Source of the DNA: Polymyxa betae
Lineage: Eukaryota; Endomyxa; Phytomyxea; Plasmodiophorida; Plasmodiophoridae
Assembly: GCA_003693705.1 (NCBI GenBank)
Contig: RBZT01000441.1
Span: 62,001-126,000 of the forward strand
DNA: 64,000 nucleotides
Direction: 5' to 3'
Both the position numbers and the translations under genes were made by a program. Shown here in pieces: positions 2 through 64,000 of the stretch. How positions within the stretch are numbered: position 1 is the first letter of the stretch; each line of letters starts with the position of its first letter. Under the pieces are notes generated by a model. The model saw nothing but the letters and a program-made list of their open reading frames with translations, searched no databases and was not told where the DNA came from.

Positions 2-292
2 ACTTCAAGGATCCCTCGGTTACTGCTGGCAATACGAGACGTTCCTTCGTACGGCGCCGAACTGGGGTTGATCCTCCATCCTGATGATGATCGGGAGCGT
101 CTAGACGATGGGCAGCCGCCACACTCTTCACCCATCCATCACGACGCCGCGCCCGAATCGTCACCGATTTATCACCAGACGCCTCCATGTCTACAAATCA
201 TTCTCCAACCCGATGGACGTTCGAGATCATTCACGAGACGTTTACAGAGACCACCTTACGAATATGATTATGGCACGCGCCAACTCCTATAA
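2..292 (+). CDS. 3' end of an unidentified gene (partial)
   Basis: The frame is open from the left edge of the window to a TAA at 290-292, about 96 codons with no stop. I see no start codon that must be the true one, so this is probably the last exon of a gene beginning outside the window. The peptide is Pro-, Ser- and His-rich and ends in an Arg/Tyr-rich stretch with no domain I recognise. It converges tail to tail with the minus-strand gene ending at 310. The main evidence is the length of the open frame, so the call is weak. Confidence 0.35.
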   Translation, partial: TSRIPRLLLAIRDVPSYGAELGLILHPDDDRERLDDGQPPHSSPIHHDAAPESSPIYHQTPPCLQIILQPDGRSRSFTRRLQRPPYEYDYGTRQLL

Positions 293-309
293 CGTTTTGA
301 CACTATGTT

Positions 310-819
310 TTAAATAATGAGATTTTGACGGGGAGTTTCTGAGTGGTCTTCAGGTCGAACGACCGATTTCCTCGGCCAGCAGCAAATCCACACGACTTCT
401 TTTCGATGCGATTGTTCTTTGATTGCAGGAAGAATTTTGACGCCTTCGCGCAATGTCCTCCTGCTTCGATGTCGCCGTCTGCTATTTGATCGTTTCAACG
501 AAGAGTTTCTAGAAAACGCCCCAAACGAAGAGCCTCTTGGAGACGCCCCAACCGAACGAGATGAATGCGATCTCGATAGCCGAGAACGCCTTTTCGGCGG
601 GCGAATAGGTTTCGTTTCATTGTCGGTCGTCGATAAAGGTGCAGATTTCACTCGAAGTAATTTTACCAGGGCTGTGTTGTTTGGCGCTGGGCTCTCGGCG
701 CTGTTCTCGCCAGCTTCTTTCAGGATGATTGCGTCTAGTTTTGGTTCATTGTTGGTCGCAGCTGCGGGCACGGATTCGGCGACATTCTTGCATTTGTTAC
801 GAAACCATCGGAACAGCAT
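310..819 (-). CDS. basic Ser/Arg-rich hypothetical protein
   Basis: This is a single-exon frame of about 169 codons from the first in-frame ATG at 819. The frame stays open upstream to a GTG at 867 but has no earlier ATG. The middle third is very rich in Ser and Arg (runs such as RRSRLSRSHSSRS), as in disordered, phosphorylated or RNA-binding segments. No catalytic motif is visible. It could be a small nuclear or cytoskeletal protein, or a fortuitous frame. Function unknown. Confidence 0.4.
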   Translation of the reverse strand: MLFRWFRNKCKNVAESVPAAATNNEPKLDAIILKEAGENSAESPAPNNTALVKLLRVKSAPLSTTDNETKPIRPPKRRSRLSRSHSSRSVGASPRGSSFGAFSRNSSLKRSNSRRRHRSRRTLREGVKILPAIKEQSHRKEVVWICCWPRKSVVRPEDHSETPRQNLII

Positions 820-1364
820 CAAACATAGATGGATGGATCCGTTGAAATAGCAATCGAATAGCAGCACCCACGTTTGAAGCTGACGTACTTGATCGGATTG
901 ATTTTAAAGATATTATGGGTCCATAGACTATGGTTTCGCTTAAGATCATTACTATATAGTAGACAACGTAACGGTACTAATATTCATTTGAGTCAATCAC
1001 ATTGTGGCGTTCGAGATTGCTTGCAACCGAACAAGCTGACGATCATTGTTAACTTAAGCAGTTGTTTACTGAGCAAAACGATTTTCATTTCTGAACAACT
1101 GGAACGTTATACATAACGAAACAATAAATGGAAAGAATAGACTTGCAATCCAAGTTGAAACCAATCGCACGCTTCGATCTAGCCCAAACACCGTCCATCT
1201 CAATCTGTTTCTACGAGATGAAAGTGACACGACTCCGAAAGGGGAGAGACGTGTTTCCTTGTTAGTAGGGAGGAGGCCGCTCTACTGCCCTGTTATGTCA
1301 CGCATCAATATCTCTTTAAAAACTTCAGTCTTGTCGTTGTTTTCATTTTGTCGTCGTCCTACTA
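820..1364. other. intergenic region upstream of the proteasome gene
   Basis: About 545 bases with no convincing coding frame. It contains the divergent upstream regions of the minus-strand gene at 310-819 and of the proteasome gene at 1365. I recognise no specific promoter element. Confidence 0.5.
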
Positions 1365-2258
1365 ATGGCGCTGTCTGTCGATCTTTCCTTTCTTCAACGG
1401 GATATTTACCGAACAGGACCGCTGGTTGAGGCGTCAGAACTTCCTATGCCGGCCCTGTTTCCACTCCACCCTCCGAAAGCGATTCTGAAAATGACCGAAG
1501 AAGCGAAAGCGAAGGAATCGAAATGTACCGGTGCTGAAGACATGTTAACCGACAAAAATATTATTGGACGCTCACTATCTCAGTACTCTAACCCGATTGC
1601 TCCTGATATCAAATATGCCCACGGAACTACGACGCTTGGATTCGTTTTCAATGGTGGTGTTCTACTTGCTGTCGATTCACGAGCTTCTATGGGGTCATAT
1701 ATCGGCTCTGGAACCGTGAAGAAAGTCATCGAAGTCAATGATCGCCTTTTAGGAACAATGGCTGGTGGTGCTGCTGATTGTTCTTATTGGGAACGCAAGC
1801 TCACGGTTGAATGCCGCCTGTTCCAGCTACGAAACGGCGCCAACATCTCTGTTGCTGCGGCATCGAAGATTCTGGCCAACATCTTCTACTCGTACCGTGG
1901 ACGTGGACTGTCTTGTGGAACTATGATTGCTGGATGGGATCAACGTGGCCCACAATTATATTATGTTGATGATGAAGGAATGCGATTAAAGGGTCAGAAG
2001 TTCTCAGTCGGCAGTGGTAGCACCTACGCGTATGGTGTCCTCGATACACATTACCGTCCAGATTTAAGTCGTGAAGATGCCATTGAGCTCGGGAAGCGTG
2101 CGATCTATCACGCCACGCATCGTGACGCTTATTCGGGTGGAACCATCAATGCTTATCTAATTGAAGAAAAGGGATGGACCAAGGTGTTCTCTGATGACAT
2201 GAACACTCTGCACTATGGCCAGTACGCCGCTGAGCGCAAGTCTAAAGGACTGGAATGA
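1365..2258 (+). CDS. PSMB5: 20S proteasome subunit beta type-5
   Basis: This is the chymotrypsin-like catalytic beta subunit of the 20S core proteasome (PRE2/PSMB5 family), an N-terminal nucleophile hydrolase. It is uninterrupted at 297 codons. An 87-residue propeptide ends at AHG and is followed by the mature N-terminus TTTLGF. With Thr1 at residue 88, the expected active-site residues fall exactly into place: Asp17 at D104, Arg19 at R106 and Lys33 at K120. Met45 (M132) and Ala49 (A136) of the S1 pocket are also present, supporting chymotrypsin-like specificity. The downstream GSGSTYAYG and RDAYSGG segments are typical of the family. The ATG at 1365 is the first in-frame start. Very secure. 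Confidence 0.97.
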
Positions 2259-2439
2259 GTTCTTGCTTAAATAAAATGAGCATGGTCACCCTTCGGATTC
2301 CACTCGTCGCTTATCTTGTGACTGTCAGAAGTTATCATCTCAGGATTCAGCTGTGAGTCGAATGGTCAATGTCTATGGCGTGAAGGTCGGTCCAATAGCG
2401 CGTTTGCTTGGAGATATCAATCAAGCAATGTAATAGAGT

Positions 2440-2954
2440 TCCGTCTTTTACGGCCTTCTGATTTTCGATGCCGTTTTGAATGCATTGATTGGTGTGACAT
2501 CAGATGGAGAAAGCATGGTTATATCTATGTATTCATCACAATCTGTCTGTTTATGGAACTAAACTATGATTAGACTGCAACCGGTCTTGCTCCTGATTGG
2601 TTTGTTTATCATTTTCCTGTTGATGTGGGACACCTTCTTGTTCAAATATGGGCTTCTTGGCGTCCTGCTTTCCGAACTCAGGAACTACTTCTTCGTCTTA
2701 CCGGCGTACTGTGCCCTCACCATTGCACTTCGAATCGAGATTATCGCAGCCGTAACTGGCAATGCTGCTGATGCCTGGAGCTCTAATTCCTTTCCGACGC
2801 TCTATTATATGCACAACTGTCGTATGTATTACTCGAAAATTTTTGCTCTCATGTAATTGACTTCGTAACAGTATCCATTCTCTACTATCTTGTGGCCATT
2901 CAAGCCACATTTCTGTTATTTGACGAGAAATTGTATAAAACACCGACTGGGTAG
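2440..2954 (+). CDS. TMEM138: TMEM138-like ciliary transmembrane protein (5' end approximate)
   Basis: The main exon carries two hydrophobic segments resembling the middle of TMEM138, including FLLMWDTFLFKYGLL and then YCALTIAL. A following SNSFP stretch matches the family's NSNSF region. The last exon is joined by a 52-nt intron (about 2820-2871) and adds LSILYYLVAIQATFLLFDEK and KTPTG before a TAG at 2952. An upstream piece near 2444-2490 (FYGLLIFDAVLNAL) fits the first membrane helix, but I could not settle the 5' splice pattern or the start codon. TMEM138 is a four-helix protein needed for ciliary trafficking in animals. The next gene, ADSS, is on the opposite strand. Confidence 0.7.
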
Positions 2955-3104
2955 AGTCATAATCTTACAAAAAAAAGCCAAACGTCCTTCCCTCCGACAG
3001 CCGAACAGCACTTGAAATCAGTGTAATTGATGCTTCACAACGGCCAATCTTGTGATTAGACATTGTTTATCATAATTCAAATTAAAGACAATAACTGGTC
3101 ACAT

Positions 3105-4704
3105 TCAGCATTGTTTTGATTGTGAGCTGCAAACAATCATATCATGACGCCCAGGACCAACACCAATATAGGAAATGGGGACACCTAATAATTCCTCAAT
3201 CCGGGACAGATATCTTTGGGCCGCTTCAGGAAGGCTAGACTTGGTTCTGCAAGATGATATATCTTCGCTCCATCCTGGAAGGGTCTCGTAGTGGACCCTG
3301 ACTTTCCCGAGCTCCTCAATCGTACTGCAAGAACGTAAATAGAATGTAGAGGCATCTCTTATGGAAAAGTGTACCTAGGCATATAGCCGTCTAGTAATTC
3401 TTTGCGATCAATGAGATATTGGACGCCAATGAGAAGTTCAGTGATTCCTGTTAGAACATCCAGCTTGGTGACGTTCAGATCATCATATCCATTCAGACAT
3501 TGGGAATACTTCAACAATGGAATATCCAGCCAGCCACATCGTCGTGGTCGTCCTGTCGTCGTTCCAAATTCATGCCCGGCCTGCAGCATTGTTGGCTTCA
3601 GCTCAAAAGCAACATCTGATTAGCTCACACGACGAAGAGTTTCCCCAGTTTCATCATTTAATTCTGTGGGGAAAGGGCCGGATCCGACTCGTGTCGTGTA
3701 CGCCTTCACGACTCCAATCGTGCGTTGGACGGCACGAGGTGGCACCCCTAAGCCGACACAAACACCACCAGATGTAGTCGTACTACTCGTCACGAACGGA
3801 TACGTTCTACGACATTCGTAAGAACGACAATCGGATTGGTGATCCTCCAACTTACCCAAAATCAAGATCCAGCAAAGCTGCGTTAGCGCCTATGACGTTG
3901 ACATCAATGTCGGCATAAAACAGGGGGAAAAAAACCGACCTTCAGCTAGAATACGACGATTCTCTCGCAGCATCGATGACATAAGAAGAACAGTATCTGT
4001 AATGTATGGGGATAGTACATTCCGATAAGTCTGAAACCGTTTTAGCTCTTCCTCAGCTGCATCATGATAGTTGATATGATAAGTCTTCTGAACAGATTCG
4101 ACCAAACTTCGGTATTTGAGGGCGAAACTGGCCCAGTCCCCTACAAGATCACCTAATCGAAGATTGTCCCGAGAAGCCTTGATCGAATAGCAAGGACCAA
4201 TTCCTAACAAAATCCACAATTCACAACGTGTATAAAATGCACTCTGCACGAACCTCTTTTTGTGGTTCCGATCCCATTGGCACCACGACTCTTCTCCTGT
4301 GATCCATCGATGATCTGCGCTGATGGTTAAGACATTTGGCAGATAGTAAACCAATGATATCAATCGACCTGGTGGAAGTCAAAGAGAATATGAGCTCGAG
4401 CACTGATTCGAATTCTCTCAGGGCTGACATCAGCACCCCGATCGGAGATCATCTTCATTTCCTCCAATAGAGATGGAATATGGATGACAGTCCCATTCCC
4501 TATTACATTCACTTTGTTTGGATACAGAACGCCACAGGGAAGCAAATGCAGGGCGTATTTCACTCCATCGACCACGATCGTATGGCCTGCATTAGCGCCA
4601 CCGTTGAAGCGAGCAACGCCATCGAATTTGTCGGCCAACAAATCGACTAATTTGCCTTTGCCTTCGTCGCCCCATTGAGCACCCAGGACGGCACATATCG
4701 TCAT
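3105..4704 (-). CDS. ADSS: adenylosuccinate synthetase
   Basis: Catalyses the GTP-dependent joining of IMP and aspartate, the first committed step of AMP synthesis. The first exon starts at the ATG at 4704 and has the family signature [11 protein letters not shown] and then NGGANAGHT. It is followed after a roughly 53-nt intron by a small exon with IDGSQE and NGIGTTKR, then [12 protein letters not shown]. Later exons carry [40 protein letters not shown] and LTKLDVL-like segments. The last exon ends IGVGPGRHD with TGA at 3105-3107. Introns are about 50 nt, for example near 4319-4368 and 4203-4252. All parts of the fold are present, so the gene looks functional. Confidence 0.95.
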
Positions 4705-4824
4705 TCTAGGCAGATCCAATCAAGACTGAGCAGAGAGACAGACCCCCTTAAGAGTAAAGTGATATTATAGTGCGGTATAGCAATGGGCTCTGCGCTATAC
4801 GATCTCCTCTCACTCATTGATTCT

Positions 4825-4961
4825 GGGCTTTCCATTGCCAACACAGTATCAGAGACGCTTCCATTGCCAGCAAAGTATTAGAGACAATCGGGCTTCCATT
4901 GCCAGCACAGTATCAGAGGTAATCGGGCTTTCCAGTGTTAACAACAGTATAAGAGAATTTC
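4825..4961. repeat. degenerate tandem repeat, about 33-37 bp unit, four copies
   Basis: Four successive units share the core GCTTTCCATTGCCAGCACAG followed by TATCAGAGA-like sequence, beginning near 4825, 4857, 4890 and 4925. The last copy is the most diverged. The array lies between the ADSS start and a decayed retroelement fragment. No coding frame runs through it. Confidence 0.75.
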
Positions 4962-40474: not shown

Positions 40475-41680
40475 TTATACAACGGATATACGACGTGGAC
40501 GAGGCGTCGGAGATGGGATCGGTGCAGTGGTGTTGACGAACGTTGAAGGTGCTGGAGAGGCAATCGTCACTGAAACGGCGACAGGTACGTTTTGCTGTGC
40601 GGCAGTTGCTAGGAGTTGAGAGAGCGATGAAGAATTAGCAGCTGCTGACAGATCGATAGTGGTAGTTGGCGATGCCGATGCAGCCGGAACCAAGGTTGGC
40701 AATGTTGCCGGCGTGCTTGTTATAGGTGCAGTGCTTGGAGATAAGCTGGGGAAGATGACTGGGGTTGTGGATGCAGATGTTGTCGGAGCCGGCGTTATGG
40801 CTGCAGATGTTGTCGGAGCCGGCGTCATGGCTGCAGATGTTGTCGGAGCCGGCGTTATGGCTGCAGATGTTGTCGGAGCCGGCGTTATGGCTGCAGCTGC
40901 AGGTGGTGTTGGGACTGGAGTGGTAGCTGTTGATGGCATGGTGGTGGTCGGTACTGGCGTCACATCTGCAGCTCGTGGACGTCGTGTAGTAGCAGCTGAG
41001 GCTTGGGTCGCGAACGTGCCAATCTTGGCGCAGAGACTGCCATTGCAGGCGTATCCTGATGGGCACCAGCCACAGGTCTTTCCAGAAATATAGGCTGATT
41101 CTCCAACCCAATTGCCAGCTGATTTATAGTGGCAGACATAGACCTGGACCTGAGGTTTTCCCAATAGGTTCGAGCATGTCGTTTGAGCACAACCAACAAA
41201 TTCGGTTGTAGCCCAGACCATCTGTTTATAGTGACCGCACGCTTTACCAGGTGTACACGATAACAGGGCGAAATCGTAATCTTTTGCCTAGACAGATCAT
41301 CATTTCAGCTCATGGTTCGGCAACAATTATCATTCAGTGAAACAATGGTTTGACGATGTGAAAAGTTTGGCAATTACCTCAGCAGCCCATGCCGAAGCAG
41401 CATCGGTGATGTTCATAGCAGGCCAACCCCAGGCCAAATTCTCACCGTATGATGTCGAGCTGTGTCCAGTTGGGCATGTGTTAGCATATGCCAATGCTGA
41501 CGCTTCCAAATTCGAATCCCACAGCATCGTCAGCATATTCATAGCAGTCGGCGACACATTGCTGCGAACTTGATTGTGCACAGCCAATACGGCGGCCTTG
41601 TCATAATCTGTTAGGGCAGCGTGACTGCTGCAAACAATCACAGCGATCAGAATTAGATGTAATTCGAGCAATGTCGGCAT
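40475..41680 (-). CDS. secreted CAP/SCP-domain protein with mucin-like repeat tail
   Basis: CAP superfamily (CRISP, antigen 5, PR-1). ATG 41680 opens MPTLLELHLILIAVIVCSSH, a signal peptide. The CAP core has AVLAVHNQVRS and then SYGENLAWGW. One intron of about 92 nt ends in TGTCTAG near 41290 and joins AASAWAAE to AKDYDFALLSCTPGK. GHYKQMVWATTEFVGCA completes the metal/substrate cavity residues. A cysteine-containing linker (CGWCPSGYACNG) precedes a long Thr/Pro/Ala tail with repeats of ITPAPTTSAA and more TTT stretches. It is likely extracellular and heavily O-glycosylated. Comparable CAP proteins are common in pathogens. Confidence 0.85.
40771..40890. repeat. four perfect 30-bp tandem repeats
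   Basis: The unit begins CTGCAGATGTTGTCGGAGCC and ends GGCGTTATGG. It is repeated at 40771, 40801, 40831 and 40861, with only single-base differences. On the minus strand each unit encodes ITPAPTTSAA within the mucin-like tail of the CAP protein. Confidence 0.95.
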
Positions 41681-44415: not shown

Positions 44416-44557
44416 TTTATCTGAAAATCGATTTCAAACAAATGTTGAATAAAGATGGGTCGCGCTGTAGGCCGCAGACCTTCTGTAGGCCGGAGACCCC
44501 GGCACCCCGACCCCGTCACCCCGACCCCGCCCAGGTCAGAGCCACAATCCATTTACA

Positions 44558-45376
44558 ATGCGGATCATCAGTATTGTTGTCCTGTTAGGCCTCGTTGGAA
44601 GTCATTGTGCTGTCAAGGCGGGCTTCGCTCCTCATGAATACGGATGCTCCCGATTCAACAACTATCTGGGTCCGCAACACAACTGGGAGAACGATCTCGC
44701 CCCTGCATTTCTGCACAACGATTTCGTCGTTGTGATCCATGGTGTGGTGGGCGCCGGAAAATCGTCCCTCATTAAACTGCTCTGTGGACACCAGAATGAT
44801 CTACAGATCGGCCAAAAACTCCCAGACAGCAGCAACATTCGCAGTGTCACCGACCGAGCCAACGTTTATAATTGCCGGTCTCGAACCAGTCCTCAGTCCG
44901 CCACCATCTTTGTCATCGATACTCCCGGCTTCGAAGAACCCAACGAGGCAGGCCAACTATGCGCCCTAGAAGGCGTCGACCGTGCACTTCGATTTGCCCG
45001 AGAACAGCGAGCCCCTCTCCGGCGAATCTATTTCTTAATGGACTGGTCCGACCCCAAAGAACCCATCCCGCTCAATCTGGAAAACCACCTCCATATCCTG
45101 CTTGCCCGCTATGGATCCTTGGTCGCATCGCGGATCCGCTTCGTCATCAGCAAGTCGGATCGGTTGTATCGAATGGGACGGCCCCAGGTCCATATTAAGC
45201 AAATGGTGGCGTTTACTGGGCAATGCTATAAAAATGTATTCCAGCTGGCTATGGTTCCCAAGCAGATGGTTTTTGTGTCCTTAAATGCTGAATACGGGGA
45301 TTGTCCTACCATTCGACAGCTCACGACTGATTTTGGTTGGAGCGTCGGAGGAAATGATGCTCGGACTGAGCTCTGA
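44558..45376 (+). CDS. signal-peptide AIG1/GIMAP-like GTPase, copy A
   Basis: ATG 44558 opens MRIISIVVLLGLVGSHCAVK, a signal peptide. The GTPase domain follows: G1 GVVGAGKS at residues 62-69, a G2-like SVT at 96-98, G3 DTPG at 121-124 and G4-like SKSD at 198-201. This order and the SVT-plus-DTPG pairing fit the AIG1/GIMAP class. The protein would enter the secretory pathway, unlike classical plant AIG1 or vertebrate GIMAP proteins. The TGA at 45374 may be a break: an alternative frame continues SSDGPLDAKLEHFTSI, and 45437-45841 carries a matching C-terminal domain. Whether this copy is functional is uncertain. Confidence 0.65.
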   Translation: MRIISIVVLLGLVGSHCAVKAGFAPHEYGCSRFNNYLGPQHNWENDLAPAFLHNDFVVVIHGVVGAGKSSLIKLLCGHQNDLQIGQKLPDSSNIRSVTDRANVYNCRSRTSPQSATIFVIDTPGFEEPNEAGQLCALEGVDRALRFAREQRAPLRRIYFLMDWSDPKEPIPLNLENHLHILLARYGSLVASRIRFVISKSDRLYRMGRPQVHIKQMVAFTGQCYKNVFQLAMVPKQMVFVSLNAEYGDCPTIRQLTTDFGWSVGGNDARTEL

Positions 45377-50701: not shown

Positions 50702-51940
50702 TTATCGATGCTTGACAGAATTGACACCGCAATACAGCGGCAGATCAGGTAACCACTTCCCATTCAATGCATCAAGCTTACATCGATCGTGTTCAGCAGC
50801 AATCGCATAGTTTCGATGCGCAAGGCCTGCAGCCAGGCAACTACCCCCAACGAGTGTTCCGACACCCGTCATACAGATAGTGAAACCTGCAGCGATAAGC
50901 TCGTCCTTTGACTTTTTTCAAAAGTCATTTGATATTCTCTCAGAAGCTGGGAAATTCGAGATGCTAGATCCTGGAGAGAACGGGTGGACGACTGTAGCCA
51001 CAGAACACGTGTGGGTTCCCATTCGATAGCACTTAGAAAATTTTCGAAACTGTACTCTTTGATCAGGGATCCAAGCAATTTGTACATCACCTTATAGGTC
51101 TTCAAGTGAGGAGAATTAACACCCGAAAATAAAGTCGGTTGCAAATCGCCTTCGCAGGCTCGATCATTGGAAGCAATGGTTAGATCGTGTGACAGCTGAC
51201 GAGCATTCCCATTCGATGTCACTGAAATGAAAAGCACGGTTTTGGAATGCGGCTCTGGATCGAATACCCATTTAAAACACTCTAAAATTCTGTCCAGCCT
51301 TTCCTTAGCCTTGTCCTTGTTGTCTTTCATCAACAGATCCGACTTGCTGACGACGAAGCGGACCCGCGATCCGATCGAGGGTCCATATCGGGCAAGCAGG
51401 ATACGGAGATGGCTTTCCAGGTTGTTTGGGACGGCTTCTTTGGGGTCGGTCCAGTCCAGTAAGAAATAGATTCGCTTGAGAGGGGCTCGCTGTTCTCGGG
51501 CAAATTGATGTGCACGGTCGACGCCTTCTAGGGCGCGTAGTTGGCCTGCCTCGCTGGGTTCCCCGAAGCCGGGAGTATCGATGACAAAGATGTTGGCAGA
51601 ATGAGGATTGGTTCGAGACCGGCAGTTATAAATGTCGGCTCGGTCGGTGAGACTTTGAATGTTGCTGCCGTCTGGGAGTTTTTGGCCGATCTGTAGACCA
51701 TTCTGGTGTCCACAGAGCAATTTAATGAGGGACGATTTTCCGGCGGCCACCACACCATGGATCACCACGACGAAATCTTTGTTCAGAAATGCAGGGGCGA
51801 GATCATTCTCCCAGTTGTGTTGCGGACCCAGATAGTTGTTGAATCGGGAGCATCCGTATTCATGAGGAACGAAGCCCGAAATTGACAGCACAATGACTTC
51901 CAACGAGGCCTAACAGGACAACAATACTGATGATCCGCAT
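50702..51940 (-). pseudogene. AIG1-like GTPase, inverted copy D, frameshifted
   Basis: Inverted paralogue of copy A with near-identical upstream DNA. ATG 51940 starts the same signal peptide, but one extra base near 51888 puts it out of frame with the domain. The main frame, 50869-51903, holds an intact GTPase domain: GVVAAGKS, SLTDRADIYNC, DTPGFGEP and VVSKSDLL, and a long helical C-terminal half. At a run of six A's near 50920 a further frame change leads to AAGFTICMTGVGTLVGGSC and a stop at 50702. Without the first shift it would be a full-length secreted GTPase, so it is a recent pseudogene or carries sequencing errors. Confidence 0.7.
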
Positions 51941-54063: not shown

Positions 54064-56982
54064 TCAGCCAAGGTTTGAGGGACGATAGGACGACATACCC
54101 AAGAATTCACCAGCCTGAACAATGTCGGTTGAGAACAACGATTCTTGCAAACTGCTATTGAGGAAGGCTGATAAAAGCCGACCGAACATTCGAGAATGGA
54201 TTAGAAGTTCAGTATCCGGCTGATTTTGCGCTGCCAACAGTGTTCGGGCGACAAGTTTTAGTAGCAGCTGGCGATGCTCTTCTTCCCGAGATTTCTGCCT
54301 CATCATTCTGTGTAGTCTATGGTCAACCCCATAGAAATATTTAACTAGTGAATCGCAACGTACCGATTCGCCATCCATTCAGATGTTTGTTCATGAATAG
54401 CACCTTCCACGTCAGCAATAGGCCCACCTAGAAGGGGTCTAATTTTATCAATGCAGGATGACTTGAGCCCGTCAATTTCCTCATCTCTATGTAATGTTCA
54501 CTTAAGGAAACAGCTACTATAAACCTGAAACGTACTTGATGCCGTCTTCTTCAAAAACTGCATGATTCTGAAATACTGTAGATATAGCTTCTTCGTAATC
54601 ATCACGATCATCTACCCCATCGAGCAGCGTATCCAAGAGGTCTTTAACGAATCTTGTTCGAAGGCTTAAACTTTTATAACTGATAACATTGATTGGTTGA
54701 TCCTATAGTTCCTTTCAAATACCGGTTCCATCTCGAACGCTGTAACATACCTTAGTCCTTCGACGTATCTGTAAACGTTCAACAGCATTACGAAAATCTT
54801 GCTTGTAAAGCATCTCGTCGGCAGTTTGCTCAGCTGACCGAAATATCTGGCTGTCTACCAACTCAATGCATTCTTCAAACACAGCTTTGGCACGATGATA
54901 ATCTTGTTTAGCCAACAAAGCGATGGCTTCAGACCTTAACCTGAAAGCTTTTGCCCAGTTAAGTATGGTAGTATCATTAGGATCCAGCGCTTGAGCCTGC
55001 ATCATGAATCCTATTCGGCAAGTCAGATATACTCTTCGAAACATTCAAAGACGTATCATATTTACTTGAAATCAGATTCTCAACAGCTCGATCTGGATTA
55101 TCCACTGAGGAGTGTGATTCCAGTAAGTCAATGCCAGCAACCAGGTTAGCACGAGCTCTTATTTGAGATATAAATCCATTAGCAACATCAATAACTTCGC
55201 CCTCCATCTGGTCAATATGCCAATAGCATGCAGCTCGTATCATCCATTTCAGAGCCCGTTCCTTATTGTTCTCTTGCAGACATTGCTTCGCTTCTCTTCT
55301 GCAGCGCAGAACTTCCAACGCCTATACCAGAAGCTAAGCAATAGAGTCAGAAGGCCAACCTTCATGCATACCTGATTACATTGCATCATGCCCAGTTTGG
55401 CATCGTGCTGCTGCGCCAGCAGCTCCCGAGCGCTGCATTGAGAAACAACCTTGGCAAATAGCCCATGAGCCTTCTTGATCAGTTCTTCACGTTGGTCAGG
55501 CGGTACTGATTTCGACTGAAAAGCACAGAGGACATTGGCCCTTGCTTGCTTAATGACTGGGCCCAGTCGTGGCTGAAGGGCTTTCAACTATTCCCGCATT
55601 ACTTCCATATGAGTTACGTTACTGTGATAAACCTCCTCACCTTTATAGTGTTTTGTTCTCGTTCACTACGAAATCTGTCGACGATCTGGTTGGCGTCAAT
55701 GGTGCCCATCCCGTTCATCAGCGCCGACGCAGAGACGTTGGTATATGACGCCATGACTCTGTTCAGGAGTTGCTGAACGGTCACAAAGACGTGGGCGTTG
55801 TCGCATTTCTCCAAGTTCTGGGTGAACTTTGATAAGCGGTCATAAATCAGTTGTACAGCCGAAATTCGACGCCGATCACTAATAGAGCAGCGAAGCGTAT
55901 CCAGCTGATTCAACTGCTGGAGGCGATCCTCAACAGATTTGACATTTGGTTGAATCAAGTTCATAAGCAGCAGAGCTTGCTTGCCAATTGCGATCTTTTC
56001 GGCCTATAAAACATGATAGGCTAAGGTCGACGTGAAGCATAAACGTACAATTGTTCCGTCAATCACTACTGATGGGCGTAACAACGCTTCTCGATCCGAT
56101 TTTGGGCCTTGACGAGCTAGTATAATTCGTAAGTCCTCAACCTGAAGCTCGGCCTTGTCAAGAATTTTGTCAAGGAACGGCTGCAGTTCCGATGAGATGC
56201 TATTGATTCTTGCAATCACATCTGTCAGCCGCTCGTCGACCTTAAAAGGTATCAGTACACTGGCCACAAAATCTGGTTGAATTACCTGATTGGTGAATTC
56301 TTGTACTGCTGATTGCTGATCTGTGTTCATTGACGAAGATAATCTTTTTCCATTCAAACCCATTTCTTCATTGATATCTTTCAGATTTCCTAGAATTGCG
56401 ATGCTCAAGATTTCGTGCATCTGTTCCTCAGCTCGTTTTGCTATCGCTAATAATGGATCTGATCCCGTTTTGATTATTTCTAATACCTCTCCTTGTTCTT
56501 CGGCCAACTATATAGTAGACTATCAGTATCTATGAGGCTGAACGGGACGTGATTGTAAAATACAGAAATTGATAGACACTGACTTTGAAAGCGCGAGCTC
56601 GTTTGGACTGGAAATTCTGTTGCGTTTCAGAATCCAAATTAGCTGTTAGCAATGTGTCGAAGAGCTCAATCGATGCTGAATGACGTCCTCTATCGAAAGC
56701 TATCAAGGCAATCAGATTTAGCCGTTCGAAGCGAAATCGTTCATCGTTGTCGAGAAGCGATTGATGGAATCGTAACGACGTGATATCGTCGTTAATCTCT
56801 TCGTTAATGATTCCGGAATCGATCTCTGCTTCAATTCGCTGGGAAATTTGAAGAGCCTCTAAATAATGTGAGCGAGCCGCGCGATAAGCGCCAAAGGATT
56901 GCAGTTCATCGCCGTATTTGCCATGCTGCTGGGCTAACAGAAGCAGGCAATGAGCCGAAGGCTCCTCCTTTTCGGCTTGCAT
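54064..56982 (-). CDS. large helical-repeat (TPR-like) protein
   Basis: At least nine exons joined by introns of 45-75 nt, for example near 55589-55638 and 55322-55371. ATG 56982 opens MQAEKEEPSAHCLLLLAQQH. The N-terminal part has TPR-like pairs of helices, including AARSHYLEALQISQR and FDRGRHSASIELFDTLL. Further helical repeats run through the protein, such as QARANVLCAFQSKSVPP and AKQDYHRAKAVFEECIEL. The last exons read MMRQKSREEEHRQLLLKL and end GMSSYRPSNLG at 54064. Roughly 850 residues. No enzymatic motif. Probably a scaffold, possibly linked to cilia or vesicle traffic, but the family is not recognised. Confidence 0.7.
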
Positions 56983-57084
56983 CACTGCAATACGATCATC
57001 TCACCAAATAATCGATTAAGGGTTAATATCTGGTACTAGTGGAAGATCTGATATGATTTCATGTTTTCCATTTATTACATTTCT

Positions 57085-57867
57085 TTATAACGCTGGTATA
57101 GCATGAAACGACGTTTGAAAAGACAAATCGACCTCGGTGTGATTTTGCAACAGTTCTGGAAAATCCACGAATTCATACTGTGATAGGTCGGAGTCGGGAA
57201 CAATATGAATGATAGGGAACTCGATGATAGTTGACGATGACAATGCATCCCTTAGAGTTTTGTGATGGGGAACACGACGAAATGGAGCGGAACGTGATGT
57301 TGGGGCCAGTAAGAAAGCCGAAGATTGCCGGCTTAGCCGATGACGAAGAGCCAGGTTGGTTCCGACAATTTTTTCAAACACGTCGTTCAGGGTCATATTC
57401 TCATCGATTCGATGTCTTAAAATGCGTTCGTCGCCAAATACGAATTCTATTGTCCACAAGATCCTCGACTTGGTTTGATCGAACATCGAACGATTCTTTC
57501 GGCGACGTGACATTCCCGATGACATTACACGAAGCTTGACATGGCGAGAATTGCAGGCCTGTAGCAGTCGGTTGGTCTGTGATTTCGGACGAACCATACG
57601 CTGATCCCGATTCGATCTATCGCGAACACGAGAGACTTCCTCAAGAAACGAGAAATCATTGAGCAAGTCCTGATCACTGAACTCGCGAAGAGCAATGAAG
57701 GCGACTCGATCGCGAATCCCGGAACAACCGGTGGCTGCTTTATGCTTTCTGCTGCAGGGCAGACTGCAAGTTCTTTCATCACAGCGCGGGCATCGGTACT
57801 TCGCCGACGAAAGGTCGCAGATAGCACATTGCAGGGTCGGGCTAGGGCGGATACGATGAGTGGTCAT
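57085..57867 (-). CDS. ZNHIT6: box C/D snoRNP assembly protein BCD1 (ZNHIT6)
   Basis: Uninterrupted frame of 260 codons from ATG 57867. The N-terminal zf-HIT domain is complete: CAICDLSSAKYRCPRC, then CSLPCSRKHKAATGCSGIRD. The next block, VAFIALREFSDQDLLNDFSF and LEEVSRV, is specific to BCD1 among HIT-finger proteins. The C-terminal half is less conserved. BCD1 helps assemble box C/D snoRNPs in the nucleus. Confidence 0.9.
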   Translation of the reverse strand: MTTHRIRPSPTLQCAICDLSSAKYRCPRCDERTCSLPCSRKHKAATGCSGIRDRVAFIALREFSDQDLLNDFSFLEEVSRVRDRSNRDQRMVRPKSQTNRLLQACNSRHVKLRVMSSGMSRRRKNRSMFDQTKSRILWTIEFVFGDERILRHRIDENMTLNDVFEKIVGTNLALRHRLSRQSSAFLLAPTSRSAPFRRVPHHKTLRDALSSSTIIEFPIIHIVPDSDLSQYEFVDFPELLQNHTEVDLSFQTSFHAIPAL

Positions 57868-59489
57868 AATGTTGATGCGATGTGAATGGAGATAAGCAAA
57901 TGTATGATAGAATGCCCCAACAGAAATTGCGCCACGGACTTTATTCAGGCATGCCGCAACCGTGTGGTTGAATATATGGGCCCAATCCAGGTAATCTGTC
58001 AGGACGGCTGTGCACTGCAGAGGCCATAAATTCCGTAATCTTGTTTGAATACAGAGCTGTTCGGGGTATGATCAAGACATGTGAACTATGTTACGGAACA
58101 TTGTCGTTGAGACTATCAATATCCCATGTATCGATTTTGCTGTTACGATTTGGCAACTTGTAGTCACATTTGATCAAAATAGCTATGAGCGACATCAGTT
58201 TTTGACAGCTACCTAGAAGTATTAACCCGAAACCATATGCTCCCTCCGTTCCATATACAGGATATGTCGATCCTATCGACGGGCTGCCCAACCACTTTGG
58301 TTGTTGTCGTAGACGTAGAGGCCCTCAAGGCAACCGATTGAACACTAAGTTTACCAATGAAGGCGACTTGATTCTATCGATGTAACGTAATTGCGTTAGT
58401 GGGCAGCATCACCATGGACACACCATCTGGATGTTTTGGCTAATTAGGTCTTATACCAACTACATAAAAAAACGTTATAGATATTCCATTCCAGTGGACA
58501 AATTCATTTGAATATACTCTATAGCAAAGAACTTGTTCAAACAAGACTTTCATCCTTTGACCAACTAGCAATCAGTACCGCCTCTATACTGTGCATCAAG
58601 CTATCACCAAATCCAGTCTCTGACCCATCCATATATGCAAACTCTATGTGCTCAAGTCCAAGCAGCGGTCATCGTTGCCAGTACTGACCTCAATCTCAAT
58701 AACATTGTTGCAGGTTGTACAGAAACATTGATGTAGGATCATCTTCGCACGGATATGGCTGATTCTGTGGCTCGAGAGCACAGTAATTGCCGAGCACGTC
58801 GCCAGCTGTACCAGGGTGCCTGTGCACCTGTTTGGGGGCAAGGTTATACCGCAGCAGCTGAGTGACATTCTGACGGCGATTGACAATCTGTACGGCTGAA
58901 CTAAACGGAAGCCAAGCAAACAGAGATTCATTGGTGTTATATAAGGATCAATGAAGCATTGCTCGGCTCCTGGATTCGTGAATTACCAAATGGGCAGAGA
59001 CCATCATAGTGCTGATATTATCAAACCGGGGGCCTGCGATACGAGATATCAATGCCATTCGGCTTCTAACCCATTTAAAGTCTCATATTTATCTGTGAAT
59101 GTGCTTTGCAGGAGTGCAGATTGTAAACATGTTGATAATTTATAACATCTCCGACCCCGGGTGGCTTGCGGCGATTGCAACGCTGGTGATTTTCTTAGCC
59201 TGCCAAAGTTTTCTTTCCACATAAACAATAAATCACGTGGACCTTCCAGCGTCATTACCTATTTTGCCTTCAGCCATTACTTCATTTACCGGTTCCGCCT
59301 GAAAAACACCACCGACGCAGGATGAACATGTAACCGTGCCAAACGGTTCAAAACTGCTCGATCGTCGCACCTTCAGGTTGTAAAGTCTGAATTGTAGACT
59401 TTTTGCGTCACTGTCGCACTTTATGTTTCTGTAGGGGCTCTGCAACTGTGCCGATTTTTCTGTTTCGAACTTTATAATTCTTACAGCAT
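57868..59489. other. region with unresolved plus-strand coding signals
   Basis: About 1.6 kb before SEC12. Several plus-strand frames look protein-like: FIQACRNRVVEYMGPIQ near 57940-57992, MLRNIVVETINIPCIDFAVT near 58090, YLEVLTRNHMLPPFHIQD near 58208, and a terminal piece VPVHLFGGKVIPQQLSDIL ending in TGA at about 58907. I could not connect them with certain introns, so a multi-exon gene is possible but not modelled. The rest, to 59489, looks non-coding. Confidence 0.3.
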
Positions 59490-62400
59490 ATGTCAAATAA
59501 CAATGAGCCATTGTGGCCAGAATTTCATCTGATTTCCCCGGATGAAGCTCAGCAATATCGCCGCATCCCTGCTCTTGCAGTGCATTGGCTGAAAGACTGC
59601 GACATCGTTCTGATTGGAGGCGGTGGAGGTACAAAAGGGACGGGGATTAAAAGTGGAATTGTAAAATCGCCTACGAAGGCACATAGATTCGATTGTTTAA
59701 TGTCATAAATGTAGATTGTAAATACAATTTCAAGTGGAGATACCCTGACTCCAGCTGGGTTTCTTGATACCCATGATAAGCTGGTCATGACTATAACTGC
59801 ACATCCAAATGTAAGCTCACCTCTTGGGCCTAAGGTGCCGTTTTAATTACTATTTAGGAATCCGTTATCGCCTGCGCTATCTGCGAATTTATGTATATTA
59901 TTCGGTTCGAGAAAATGACGTTAAAGGTGATAGAACGCATAAAAACAGATTATTCCCAAGATAATCCTTTTGTGGTATGAATAGTAGCGCCTTCAATGTT
60001 TGAAGGTTTGCTAATTGCCGTTTCTGTAGTCTTGCATCACTTTCAACACTCCTGGAACGATAATAGCTGGTGGAGGTCAAGATTCTTCTGTCAAGACATT
60101 TGGATACCCTTCATTCGGTAGATTGAATCACTTCAAACATCACCAGAACTGTATACAGACAGTTTCCTTCAACAAAGACAGCACACTACTTGCTGTGGCT
60201 TCTAAAGAGACTTTTTTCAGCATTTGGCATGTTGACCATTCCAAGATGTTCACCCTATCATTCCGTAATATGGAGATTCGTGGCTGTGTTTTCTCTTCGC
60301 ACTACGAACATCTCGCTTATTCATGGATGAACGACCGTGAACTCGGGAGTCATCTCGCAATGTGGGATCTTCATTCGGGCAAGATTCTGAAACTGGTGCG
60401 TTTTCTGAACATATTCGTTTGTATCTGGATTTTGAATTCGTATCAGAAACGGCTAGATGATAGACCGGTGACTCTGGGACGTTTGAGTGACGATGGCTCA
60501 TCACTAGCTGTCACCACATTAAAACGTGATTGCACCGTCTACACATTTGATACGAGAACTCTATCTGTGGTTGGCAAAAGGACAATTCTTCACGAGTAGG
60601 GCTCAACATTGTCTTCGTTACTGCAAATCGACTAAATGTTTTGTAGCTTCCCGCAAACATCGCTGGATTTCTCTCCGGTTGGGGATCGGCTCATCTCAGT
60701 ATCGGCTGATACATCCGCTATTGTATTTCGATCACGATCCTCATCGTGTGGTACAATGTTGACCTGTCCTCTGAGATCTGCGGTTTACTAGTGATTAGGG
60801 TGCTTCAAGAGCATCTTCCTCATTTTCTTCATAGCAGGTCTCGTTATGGCTGTTCTGTTTTCCGGGAATGTATCCAAGAACGATATCCTTACTGATTTCT
60901 CTTCGAACCTTGGTGCGGTTCACAATTTGCACCTGGACCGTTTTTTATTCGTCTTCAGACACTGTTCGGAGCTGGTACAACAAGAAACCAGATCGTGCTG
61001 AATCCAATACTGACTGGGGTCATGAATTGTATGAGGATGCCGTTCCAGAACCCGCTTTCGATACAGAAGGTGTCGTAGTTCAGCTTTAATTGCCAACGTC
61101 TGTTTCATCGATATTCGCAGAGCCGATAAAGCCCCGCTTCGAAGAACAGCCCGTTTATTTGAGCTCGGTTCCAGTGGCCAAACATGAGGGCTTAAAACTG
61201 GATCCTATCACAGGTTGCTAACGTGCCATTTTGTCGCTATTTCGTCTCTGAATATTGCATTAGAATCATCCGAGTCGGTCTCACTGAACGGACACGAGGA
61301 GTACGATGAGAAGATGTTTCATGACAGCTACCAAGGTGAAGCTGCTACCCCGTCGATTCCAGATTCGCTTAAATCAGGTAAATGCTCTTTATTGCTCTGT
61401 ATCTTTTCTGTTTATCAATGACTTTCCGTTCAGATTCGATTCATCTGGCTTCACCGGATATTGTTTCGGCTTCTGAGAACGATCACCTTCAATCCGAATC
61501 TGCAAAAGGTGTTTACCTGCTTTCCGCTAATCTGTACCGCCTTGATGAGCTATTCTGTTAGCATTTCCGGAACCAAGCCATGTAATAGAGCATGATGACC
61601 TGACAATCCATGCCTCTGTCCACGATAGTGCAACTGGTGCCTCAAGTCCAGATTTAACCAACGCAGGTGAATGTGCTGTCCTCATGAATAGTTCTTTCAA
61701 TGAACGTGCCGTTTTTCTCTCAGGATCGGTTCTTGTGGCCGAACATGAGGGCTTCAATATGGATCCAATCACAGGTCGCTAGTGTGCCAGTTTGTAGCTA
61801 TTTCCTCTCTGAACAATGCATTAGAATCGTCCAAGTCTGTCTCACTGAACGGACATGAGAAGTACGATGAGAAGATGTTTCATAACTACGAAGGTGAAGT
61901 TGCTACCCCGCCGATCCCAGATCCGCTCAAATCAGGTAAATGCTCTTTATTGCTCTGTATCTTTTCTGATTATCAAATGACTTTCCGTTCAGATTCGATT
62001 CCTCTGGCTTCACCGGATAATTTTTCGGGGTCTGAGAACGATCACCTCCAAAACGAATCTGCAAAAGGTGTTTACCTGCCTTCCGCTAATCCGTACCGCC
62101 TTTGATAAGCTATTCTGTTAGCATCTACACCACCAATCCATGTATTAGAGCATGGCGACCTGACGATCCATACATCCGTCCAGGATAGTGCACCTGGTGC
62201 CTCAAGTCCAGATTTAACCAACTCAGGTAAATGGTCTGTCCACATGATTAGTTCACGCAATGAACGTGCCGTTTCTTTCCCTCAGGATCGTCTGCAGTGG
62301 CCGAACATGAGGACATCAAATTAGATTCAATCACAGGTTGCTAGCGTGCCAATTTGTAGCTATTTCCTTTCTGAATATTACCGTTAGAGTCATCCGAGTC

Positions 62401-63591
62401 GGTTTCACTGAATGGACGTGAGAAGAACGATGAAAAGATGTTTAATGACAGCTACCAAGGTGAAGCGTCTGCCCCATCGATTCCAGATTCGCCTAAATCA
62501 GGTAAATGCTCTTTATTGCTCTGTATCTATTCTGATTATAAATGACTTTACTTTCAGATTTGATTCCGGATATCTTTTCGGGATCTGAGAATGATTACCT
62601 CCAAACCGAATCTGCAGAAGGTATTTTCCTGCCTTCCGCTAATCTGTACCGCCTTTTGATGAGCTATTCTGTTAGCATCTACAGAACCAATCCATGTAAT
62701 AGAGCATGGCGATTTGACGGTCGATACCACCGTCCAGGATAGTGGTGCTGGTACCTCAAGTCCAGATTTAAGCAACTCAGGTAAATGTGCTGTCCCCATA
62801 ATTTGTTCTCCCATGAACGTGCCGTTTCTTTCCGTCAGGACCGGTTACAGTGGCCGAACATGAGGGCATCAAAAACGGTTCAATCACAGGTTGCTAGCGT
62901 GCCATTTTGTAGCTATATTGAATATTACCGTTAGAATCATCCGAATCGGTCTCTCGAGAAGGACATGAGAAGAACGATGACAAGATGTTTAATGACAGCT
63001 ACCAAGGTGAAGCTTCTGCCCCTTCAATTCCAGAGTCGCTTAAATCAGGTAAATGCTCTTTATTGTTCAGTGTATGTTCTGAATTTCAAATGACTTTCCG
63101 TTCAGATTCGATTCATCTGGCTTCACCGGATATTGTTTCGGTATCTGAGAACGATCACCTCCAAACCAAATCTGCACAAGGTATTTACCTGCCTTCCGCT
63201 AATCATCCGCCTTTTGATTAGCTACTGTTAGCATCTACGGAACCAAGCCATGTAATAGAGCAAGAGCATGGCGACCTGACGATCCATACCGATGTCCACG
63301 ATAGTGCAGCTGGTGCCTCAAGTCCAGATTTAACCAACTCAGGTAAATATGCTGCCACGTGAGTAGCTCTCTCAATGAACGTGCCTTTTCTTTCCGTCAG
63401 GATCGGTTCCAGTTTCATCTGATGACAGAGATACAATTGTTGATAATGACAGCCCTGAAATTGAAGCAATCGATGGTAGCTAATCCAGGTTCTGGTGGCG
63501 GTTGGTTTCTGACTTCACTGTGGTTTCAGAATCTACAAAACCTATCGCGATCAATGCAAGTGACATGCAGGACGATAATACCAATTTATAA
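59490..63591 (+). CDS. SEC12/PREB-type SAR1 exchange factor with repeat-built lumenal domain
   Basis: ER membrane WD40 protein that activates SAR1 for COPII vesicles. ATG 59490; the K-loop motif VLIGGGGGTKGTGIKSGI is typical of SEC12/PREB. Propeller blocks follow over several short introns, including FNKDSTLLAVASKETFFSIW, GRLSDDGSSLAVTTL and LDFSPVGDRLISVSADTSA. A transmembrane helix SIFLIFFIAGLVMAVLFSG comes next, at about 60810-60870. TAA 61087 lies in frame, but a 50-nt intron starting GTGTCG near 61072 and ending in ATTCGCAG removes it. That intron joins PAFDTE to EPIKPRFEEQ, and the repeat module then runs in phase 1 to TAA 63589. The predicted protein has a very long, Ser/Asp-rich lumenal tail. 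The intron over the stop is inferred, not proven. Confidence 0.8.
61140..63440. repeat. tandem array of four 4-exon modules, 547-563 bp period
   Basis: Each unit has exons a, b, c and d with a short phase-1 intron after each. Exon a copies start at 61264, 61825, 62388 and 62935, giving periods of 561, 563 and 547 bp. A partial d exon precedes the first unit. Coding examples: exon a has SESVSLNGHE, exon b SPDIVS and ENDHLQ, exon c HVIEH and ASSPDLTN, exon d VAEHEG and DPIT or a variant. Introns are as conserved as exons, for example GTAAATGCTCTTTATTG in all copies. The array arose by duplication of whole exon-intron units. Confidence 0.9.
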
Positions 63592-63759
63592 ATCAGATCA
63601 ATCCTAAATTACTTCTTACGGCCTAATGCGTTTCTGCTAGCGATTACCAGCGGGCTCTGCACATAGGAGGAGTAGGTAGAGTCAAGACTCAAGAGCCCTG
63701 TGCGACAAATTATTTATATCGCTACCACTGGGCGTTCTATACTTCGACTCAAACAGCAA

Positions 63760-64000
63760 GGGCCCACTTATCCAATATCCGATACAATAGTCGGCAAATA
63801 TTGGATAGAAAATGGCAATTCTGAGAGGGTCAGAAACGACAAGGCGAGAATCACTGTCGCATTGGCCGCAAACGTGGACGGATCCGAAAAGCTGAAGCCC
63901 TTGTCTACTGGTTATTACGCCAGCCTCCACGCTTTCGATAAGAAACGCCCAAATCAGCTTGGAATTTGGTATCGCTACAATAGAAAGGCCTGGATGACAA
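63760..64000 (+). mobile_element. partial pogo/Tigger-like DDE transposase
   Basis: Open frame to the window edge reading GKYWIENGNSERVRNDKARI, then TVALAANVDGSEKLKPL and RYNRKAWMT. This matches the DDE_1-type catalytic core of pogo/Tigger/jerky elements, where a xTVxLxANxxGxEKLKPL block precedes the KAWMT motif. The N-terminal DNA-binding part and the catalytic acids outside this stretch are not visible. It continues past the window, so integrity cannot be judged. Confidence 0.6.

Follow-up and report, generated by a model that had tools for sequence, protein, structure and literature searches.

Structure of the Locus

Within the window, a 64,000-nucleotide stretch of the Polymyxa betae genome, positions 59490-63591 of the + strand hold a Sec12-like coding region that we modeled by hand as 26 exons encoding 925 residues; all parts of the gene described below lie on this strand. 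Exons 1-6 (59490-60750) encode a WD40 propeller (residues 1 to ~334), recognized from Pfam and database matches and predicted to be cytosolic. Exon 7 (60799-60912) contributes one hydrophobic helix (residues ~336-356, with the hydropathy maximum at residue 337) and is followed by a unique, putatively lumenal stem made of exon 8, intron 8 and the opening 42 nt of exon 9 (60959-61162). Four repeat units, introns included, come next: unit 1 at 61163-61723 (561 bp; end of exon 9 and exons 10-12), unit 2 at 61724-62285 (562 bp; exons 13-16), unit 3 at 62286-62838 (553 bp; exons 17-20) and unit 4 at 62839-63400 (562 bp; exons 21-24). Exons 25 and 26 (63401-63591) encode the C-terminal end of the protein, which finishes in DNTNL and carries neither HDEL nor NDEL. 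The first and last positions of the model agree with those given in a preliminary description of the locus, and its picture of a SEC12-type propeller and membrane helix joined to an array of four-exon cassettes fits within this single gene model.

All introns of the hand-spliced model are short (45-59 nt) and have GT-AG ends. Introns 1-4 are in phase 0 and intron 5 is in phase 2, while each of the 20 introns from 6 to 25 is in phase 1, although 16 of these 20 are copies of four. The cassette boundaries are thus all phase 1, as had been described, and the same phase extends past the array to the helix and stem exons (7-9) and to the last intron. Splice sites and exon borders were picked by hand. 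The donor of intron 5 (60596) was set to keep the frame open and, therefore, the open frame is no independent evidence for the model. The pattern of gaps between repeat units and the codon usage (stops left out), presented below, depend less on the hand-chosen frame. Splicing of the modeled introns is predicted from their sequence. In all four units, the intron that follows exon A has an in-frame stop at its third codon, so that the array can be read as one protein only if it is spliced. Three 57-nt array introns are free of in-frame stops: 61667-61723 (intron D of unit 1), 61936-61992 (intron B of unit 2) and 63049-63105 (intron B of unit 4). Retention of any of the three would add 19 residues in frame.

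The GC content of the window is 46.0%; published values are 45.1% for Polymyxa betae, 45.7% for Spongospora subterranea and 58.5% for Plasmodiophora brassicae (PMC6328671). A proteasome beta-5 open reading frame (within 1320-2255) had its two best matches in S. subterranea and P. brassicae (73% identical each), and one metagenome protein was 76% identical over less of the query. Directly after the Sec12-like gene, an open frame on the + strand that continues past the end of the window (63676-64000) shows similarity to the DDE_1 endonuclease family (E 1.4e-11); hence, a transposon-like gene adjoins the array. Elsewhere in the window, two GTPase-like open frames resembling each other (44489-45373 on the + strand and 50872-51909 on the - strand) gave weak matches to MMR_HSR1. 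Both share a stretch starting GF(A/V)PHEYGCSRFNNYLGPQ and appear to belong to a local family. On the - strand, 40478-41287 encodes a fragment of a CAP (cysteine-rich secretory) domain (E 5.8e-5) and, after it, a Thr/Ala/Pro-rich region that contains short repeats. The stretch just upstream of the window contains, at its own positions 2311-3455 and 3717-4861, a pair of direct repeats of ~1.1 kb (67% identical, offset 1406).

Identity of the Propeller

A database search with residues 1-556, in which 7998 candidates were scored, returned four matches, the best being SEC12-like protein 2 of Juglans (E 2.7e-9) and none a Plasmodiophora or Spongospora protein. The alignment to the Juglans protein is colinear (23% identical) from residue 70 through the helix, where the sole prominent hydrophobic stretch of the Polymyxa protein (residues ~336-356) aligns with the helix of its plant counterpart. 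Upstream, residues 44-55 (59619-59654) form the K-loop-like motif GGGGTKGTGIKS. The diagnostic K-loop of Sec12 is GGGGxxxxG-hydrophobic-x-N (PMC8703528). The motif found here, GGGG-TKGT-G-I-K-S, fits at all fixed positions except the last, where Ser replaces the published Asn. With Ser at this position, the Polymyxa protein is at most a candidate Sar1 exchange factor.

Other searches were less specific. WD40 matches in Pfam and PDB span residues 72-331, within the region where Sec12 would have a cytosolic propeller of seven blades. Generic WD40 chains led the PDB matches of the propeller, with PREB in 54th place among the best 60 listed, and residues 1-128 alone matched no Sec12 chain. In the reverse search of the genome with the Juglans protein, scored exon by exon, this locus ranked 14th among the 30 matches listed (E 0.046), behind a top match that we take to be PWP2 and a second that is another WD40 protein. 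Sec12 is reported to be hard to distinguish from other WD40 proteins by BLAST (PMC8703528, PMC4419792). Mixed ranks are thus what a distant Sec12 would show and no proof that this is one. The replaced Asn and the generic WD40 matches, which are as strong as the Sec12 ones, would also suit a protein without Sar1 exchange activity, be it a Sed4-like regulator or some other membrane-anchored WD40 protein. We consider this unlikely, given that a SEC12-like protein is the best database match and that no stronger candidate for Sec12 emerged from the propeller searches of the genome, whose other matches were weak or, for the leader of the reverse search, apparently PWP2. The Sec16 TPR family also has a match in the genome, barely above its cut-off (23.3 vs 22 bits). 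The most likely product is an ER membrane protein of the Sec12 type, a variant within the long-tailed Sec12/Sed4 group.

The predicted topology, with a cytosolic N-terminus and a lumenal tail, takes its orientation only from the charges flanking the helix. We also considered N-glycosylation sequons as evidence of topology, but their numbers (8 vs 5.8 expected in the tail; 1 vs 2.2 before the helix) were too weak a signal. The tail (~568 residues) contains no Cys and is rich in Asp (58), Glu (56) and Ser (91). Its charge-hydropathy value, a crude index, falls on the disordered side (-0.14, compared to +0.20 for the propeller), and we infer from it that the tail is probably disordered.

A Tandem Array of Phase-Matched Cassettes

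The locus contains direct repeats whose starts lie 547-566 bp apart in those families where three or four copies follow one another; the period noted earlier was about 550-560 bp. Each unit has the layout A(51)-B(114/111)-C(75/63)-D(105/111) nt, and all exon lengths are multiples of three. The units had been described as near-identical, but they are only 85-88% identical in pairwise comparisons over 542-558 aligned columns. At 12-15% divergence, the units cannot stem from recent duplications. Units 1 and 2 differ little (2-3% in 60-column windows) in patches surrounding their intron B; these patches were the only sign of recent gene conversion, and we did not adopt that explanation. The phase-1 cassette borders support the proposal that units can join or leave the array without shifting the frame.

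The array appears only in this gene. When 55001-64000 of the window was searched with a profile of the four units, it recovered those same units (E 1.6e-197 or better, by construction) and nothing further at E below 0.1. Tandem Repeats Finder, whose longest period is 500, reported no rows. A DNA search of the genome (24.4 Mb, 541 contigs) with the array gave one match, at this locus, and all 12 matches of the corresponding protein search (E up to 10) fell inside this gene. We also compared with themselves 28 pieces of DNA, consisting of the window in 8 pieces and 20 10-kb stretches that we chose from three contigs. Same-strand repeat pairs at offsets of 100-4000 were found in 6 of the 28, and more than two copies in series in this gene alone.

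The flanks and the interior of the units gave fainter signals. Within exon 9, the 42 nt ahead of the first exon A are similar to the 3′ portion of intron D (z 1.9-3.8 for the four copies against plain shuffles). If this likeness reflects descent, an intron would have become an exon or the reverse. A nested duplication within the unit was too weakly indicated to retain, both for exons B and D (mean z 1.44, best 3.99) and for exons A and C (mean z 0.23, best 2.38; 36 class pairs). Exons 25-26 are no more than suggestive of a decayed A-B unit: the protein comparison of exon 26 with B gave a mean z of 4.04, but the DNA gave z values from -0.4 to 1.8 for the four copies and an nhmmer E of 0.2 at 63446-63578.

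Coding Signals and Possible Selection in the Tail

Three lines of evidence indicate that the array is read in the modeled frame. First, all three exonic gaps between units are multiples of three (3, 12, and 6), compared to one of the ten intronic gaps (Fisher P 0.014). Second, codon usage, trained on 16 long open stretches from the rest of the window and scored with stop codons excluded, was coding-like: the array reached +0.25 bits per codon in the modeled frame (standard error 0.03), compared to -0.01 to +0.12 in the other five frames and -0.02 to +0.01 in its introns. The propeller itself scored only +0.11. Third, none of the 109 changes from the unit consensus created a stop, where 3.6 were expected (P 0.02).

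The amino acid sequence appears to be under much looser control. The nonsynonymous share of changes was 0.679, within the range of a neutral simulation that took account of the transition share (0.711, SD 0.042, P 0.26), so that constraint on the amino acids was not significant in that simulation. Divergence is no lower in exons (0.150) than in intron cores (0.134), and the 95% interval for the difference between them runs from -0.029 to 0.063. By the NG86 method, dN was 0.140 and dS 0.249, and the pooled ratio of ~0.56 (0.39-0.80 by pair) suggests some weak constraint on the tail sequence. In all of these tests, the four units are a small sample and their consensus a rough ancestor. We take the reading frame to be kept and the amino acid sequence to be kept weakly or not at all. 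Near-neutral replacements combined with the absence of any stop point, in our reading, to selection that favors openness and disorder of the tail over its particular sequence.

The near-neutral replacements and the similar divergence of exons and introns would also be expected if the duplications were neutral ballast, with a frame that is open mainly since decay is young. Precedent exists in yeast, where Sed4 without its lumenal region is reported to complement a sed4 deletion (PMC11959615), so that a tail of this kind may matter little. However, the lack of stops in four copies and the preservation of frame by the exonic gaps, as opposed to the intronic ones, make drift on its own an improbable account. 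No better placed, in our opinion, is the proposal that the units are specific lumenal modules for binding cargo, calcium or a partner, with their copy number setting the valency. The units are acidic and rich in His and Ser, and all four share stretches such as SSPDL and HVIEH/HVLEH, as binding modules might. Yet amino acid constraint was not significant and no known domain was matched in the tail, all Pfam matches falling within residues 72-331. Nor did a search with residues 290-560 (2195 candidates, E up to 10) find a relative of the tail; it detects only relatives with exact shared 5-residue words, and an orthologue with a diverged tail could escape it.

Least probable is a division into two genes, a short Sec12 and a separate downstream repeat gene: the exon 8 frame does run open (ORF 60835-61089) to a TAA near 61087, but this stop lies inside intron 8 (61070-61120), a 51-nt, phase-1, GT-AG intron like its neighbors that is predicted between exons 8 and 9; the stem has a coding-like score (+0.21, in a variant that counts stops as -3 and favors any open frame); and the array has no good place for a start of its own because no in-frame Met follows the helix before residue 458, within exon 10, from where, by our reading of the sequence, the product would lack a signal peptide.

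A Tail Probably Lengthened by Cassette Duplication

On balance, and with moderate confidence, we propose that the gene encodes a Sec12-type protein with a disordered lumenal tail that was lengthened by cassettes and acts through its length and disorder. The N-terminal propeller would face the cytosol and act on Sar1 or, failing that, on some part of the COPII machinery, while the single helix would span the ER membrane and place the C-terminal 568 residues, acidic, Ser-rich and presumably disordered, in the ER lumen. A four-exon cassette of ~115 codons would have been duplicated in tandem to lengthen the tail, and exchange between introns of equal phase could join the copies with the frame intact. 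What would count for the function of the tail is how long and disordered it is, and its exact sequence less so. It may gather the protein at ER tubules and exit sites, perhaps by self-association, as in Sed4 and the Sec12 of Pichia pastoris.

Work in yeasts provides a rationale for this role. The disordered lumenal tails of Sed4, P. pastoris Sec12 (PpSec12) and Candida glabrata Sed4 (CgSed4) are reported to be less than 20% identical and yet all go to ER tubules, as do disordered regions of Sec16 and Atg13 (PMC11959615). The yeast work attributes the routing of such tails to the tubules to their disorder rather than their sequence. The concentration of Sed4 at exit sites is likewise described as requiring its lumenal domain, which takes part in self-interaction, and HDEL as dispensable for this localization (PMC10184828). 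By analogy, the tail of the Polymyxa protein could have a localization role like that of the yeast tails, reached here by cassette duplication.

A possible but doubtful extension of this model is that the tail works as an evolving ruler. Its length would change in steps of ~115 residues with the propeller untouched, copy number would differ among isolates, length would tune the gathering at ER tubules and exit sites, and selection would act on length and disorder alone. The countable, phase-matched and near-neutral units of an organism far from yeast would offer an independent case of a long tail and a simple test of the effect of length.

Comparison With Known Systems

The closest known parallels are found in yeasts. 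Sed4 of S. cerevisiae and C. glabrata resembles the Polymyxa protein in having a Sec12-type propeller, one helix and a long disordered lumenal region (PMC11959615). Unlike the protein described here, Sed4 ends in HDEL or NDEL, and the tail sequence found here had no relative in the database search. Sed4 is, as reported, confined to some yeasts (PMC4419792). The gene may work like Sed4 but is not Sed4: Sed4 arose from a Sec12 duplication in the Saccharomyces/C. glabrata lineage, and the host here is a plasmodiophorid. The Sec12 of P. pastoris also has an extended disordered lumenal region involved in self-interaction and exit-site localization; it differs in its HDEL end, and the account of it to which we refer mentions no repeat array (PMC10184828). 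Plant SEC12-like protein 2 and animal PREB share with the Polymyxa protein the WD40 propeller, the K-loop (near-complete here) and the helix. In the Juglans protein, however, few residues follow the helix, compared to ~568 here.

The titles and opening lines of abstracts in the open-license literature disclosed no Sec12 with an array of this kind, and the titles of papers on symmetric or duplicated exons nothing on such an array. Within their limited reach, these and the protein searches agree with the earlier statement that no SEC12 built from a cassette array is known. Multi-exon cassettes of the same phase are duplicated in tandem in other genes, such as those for the kringle IV domains of animal apolipoprotein(a) and the super-repeats of nebulin. 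The repeats of those proteins are folded or bind filaments, whereas the ones described here would make up the disordered lumenal tail of a COPII factor. The array is thus a moderate surprise: long disordered tails are known in the Sec12 family and same-phase cassette arrays in other genes.
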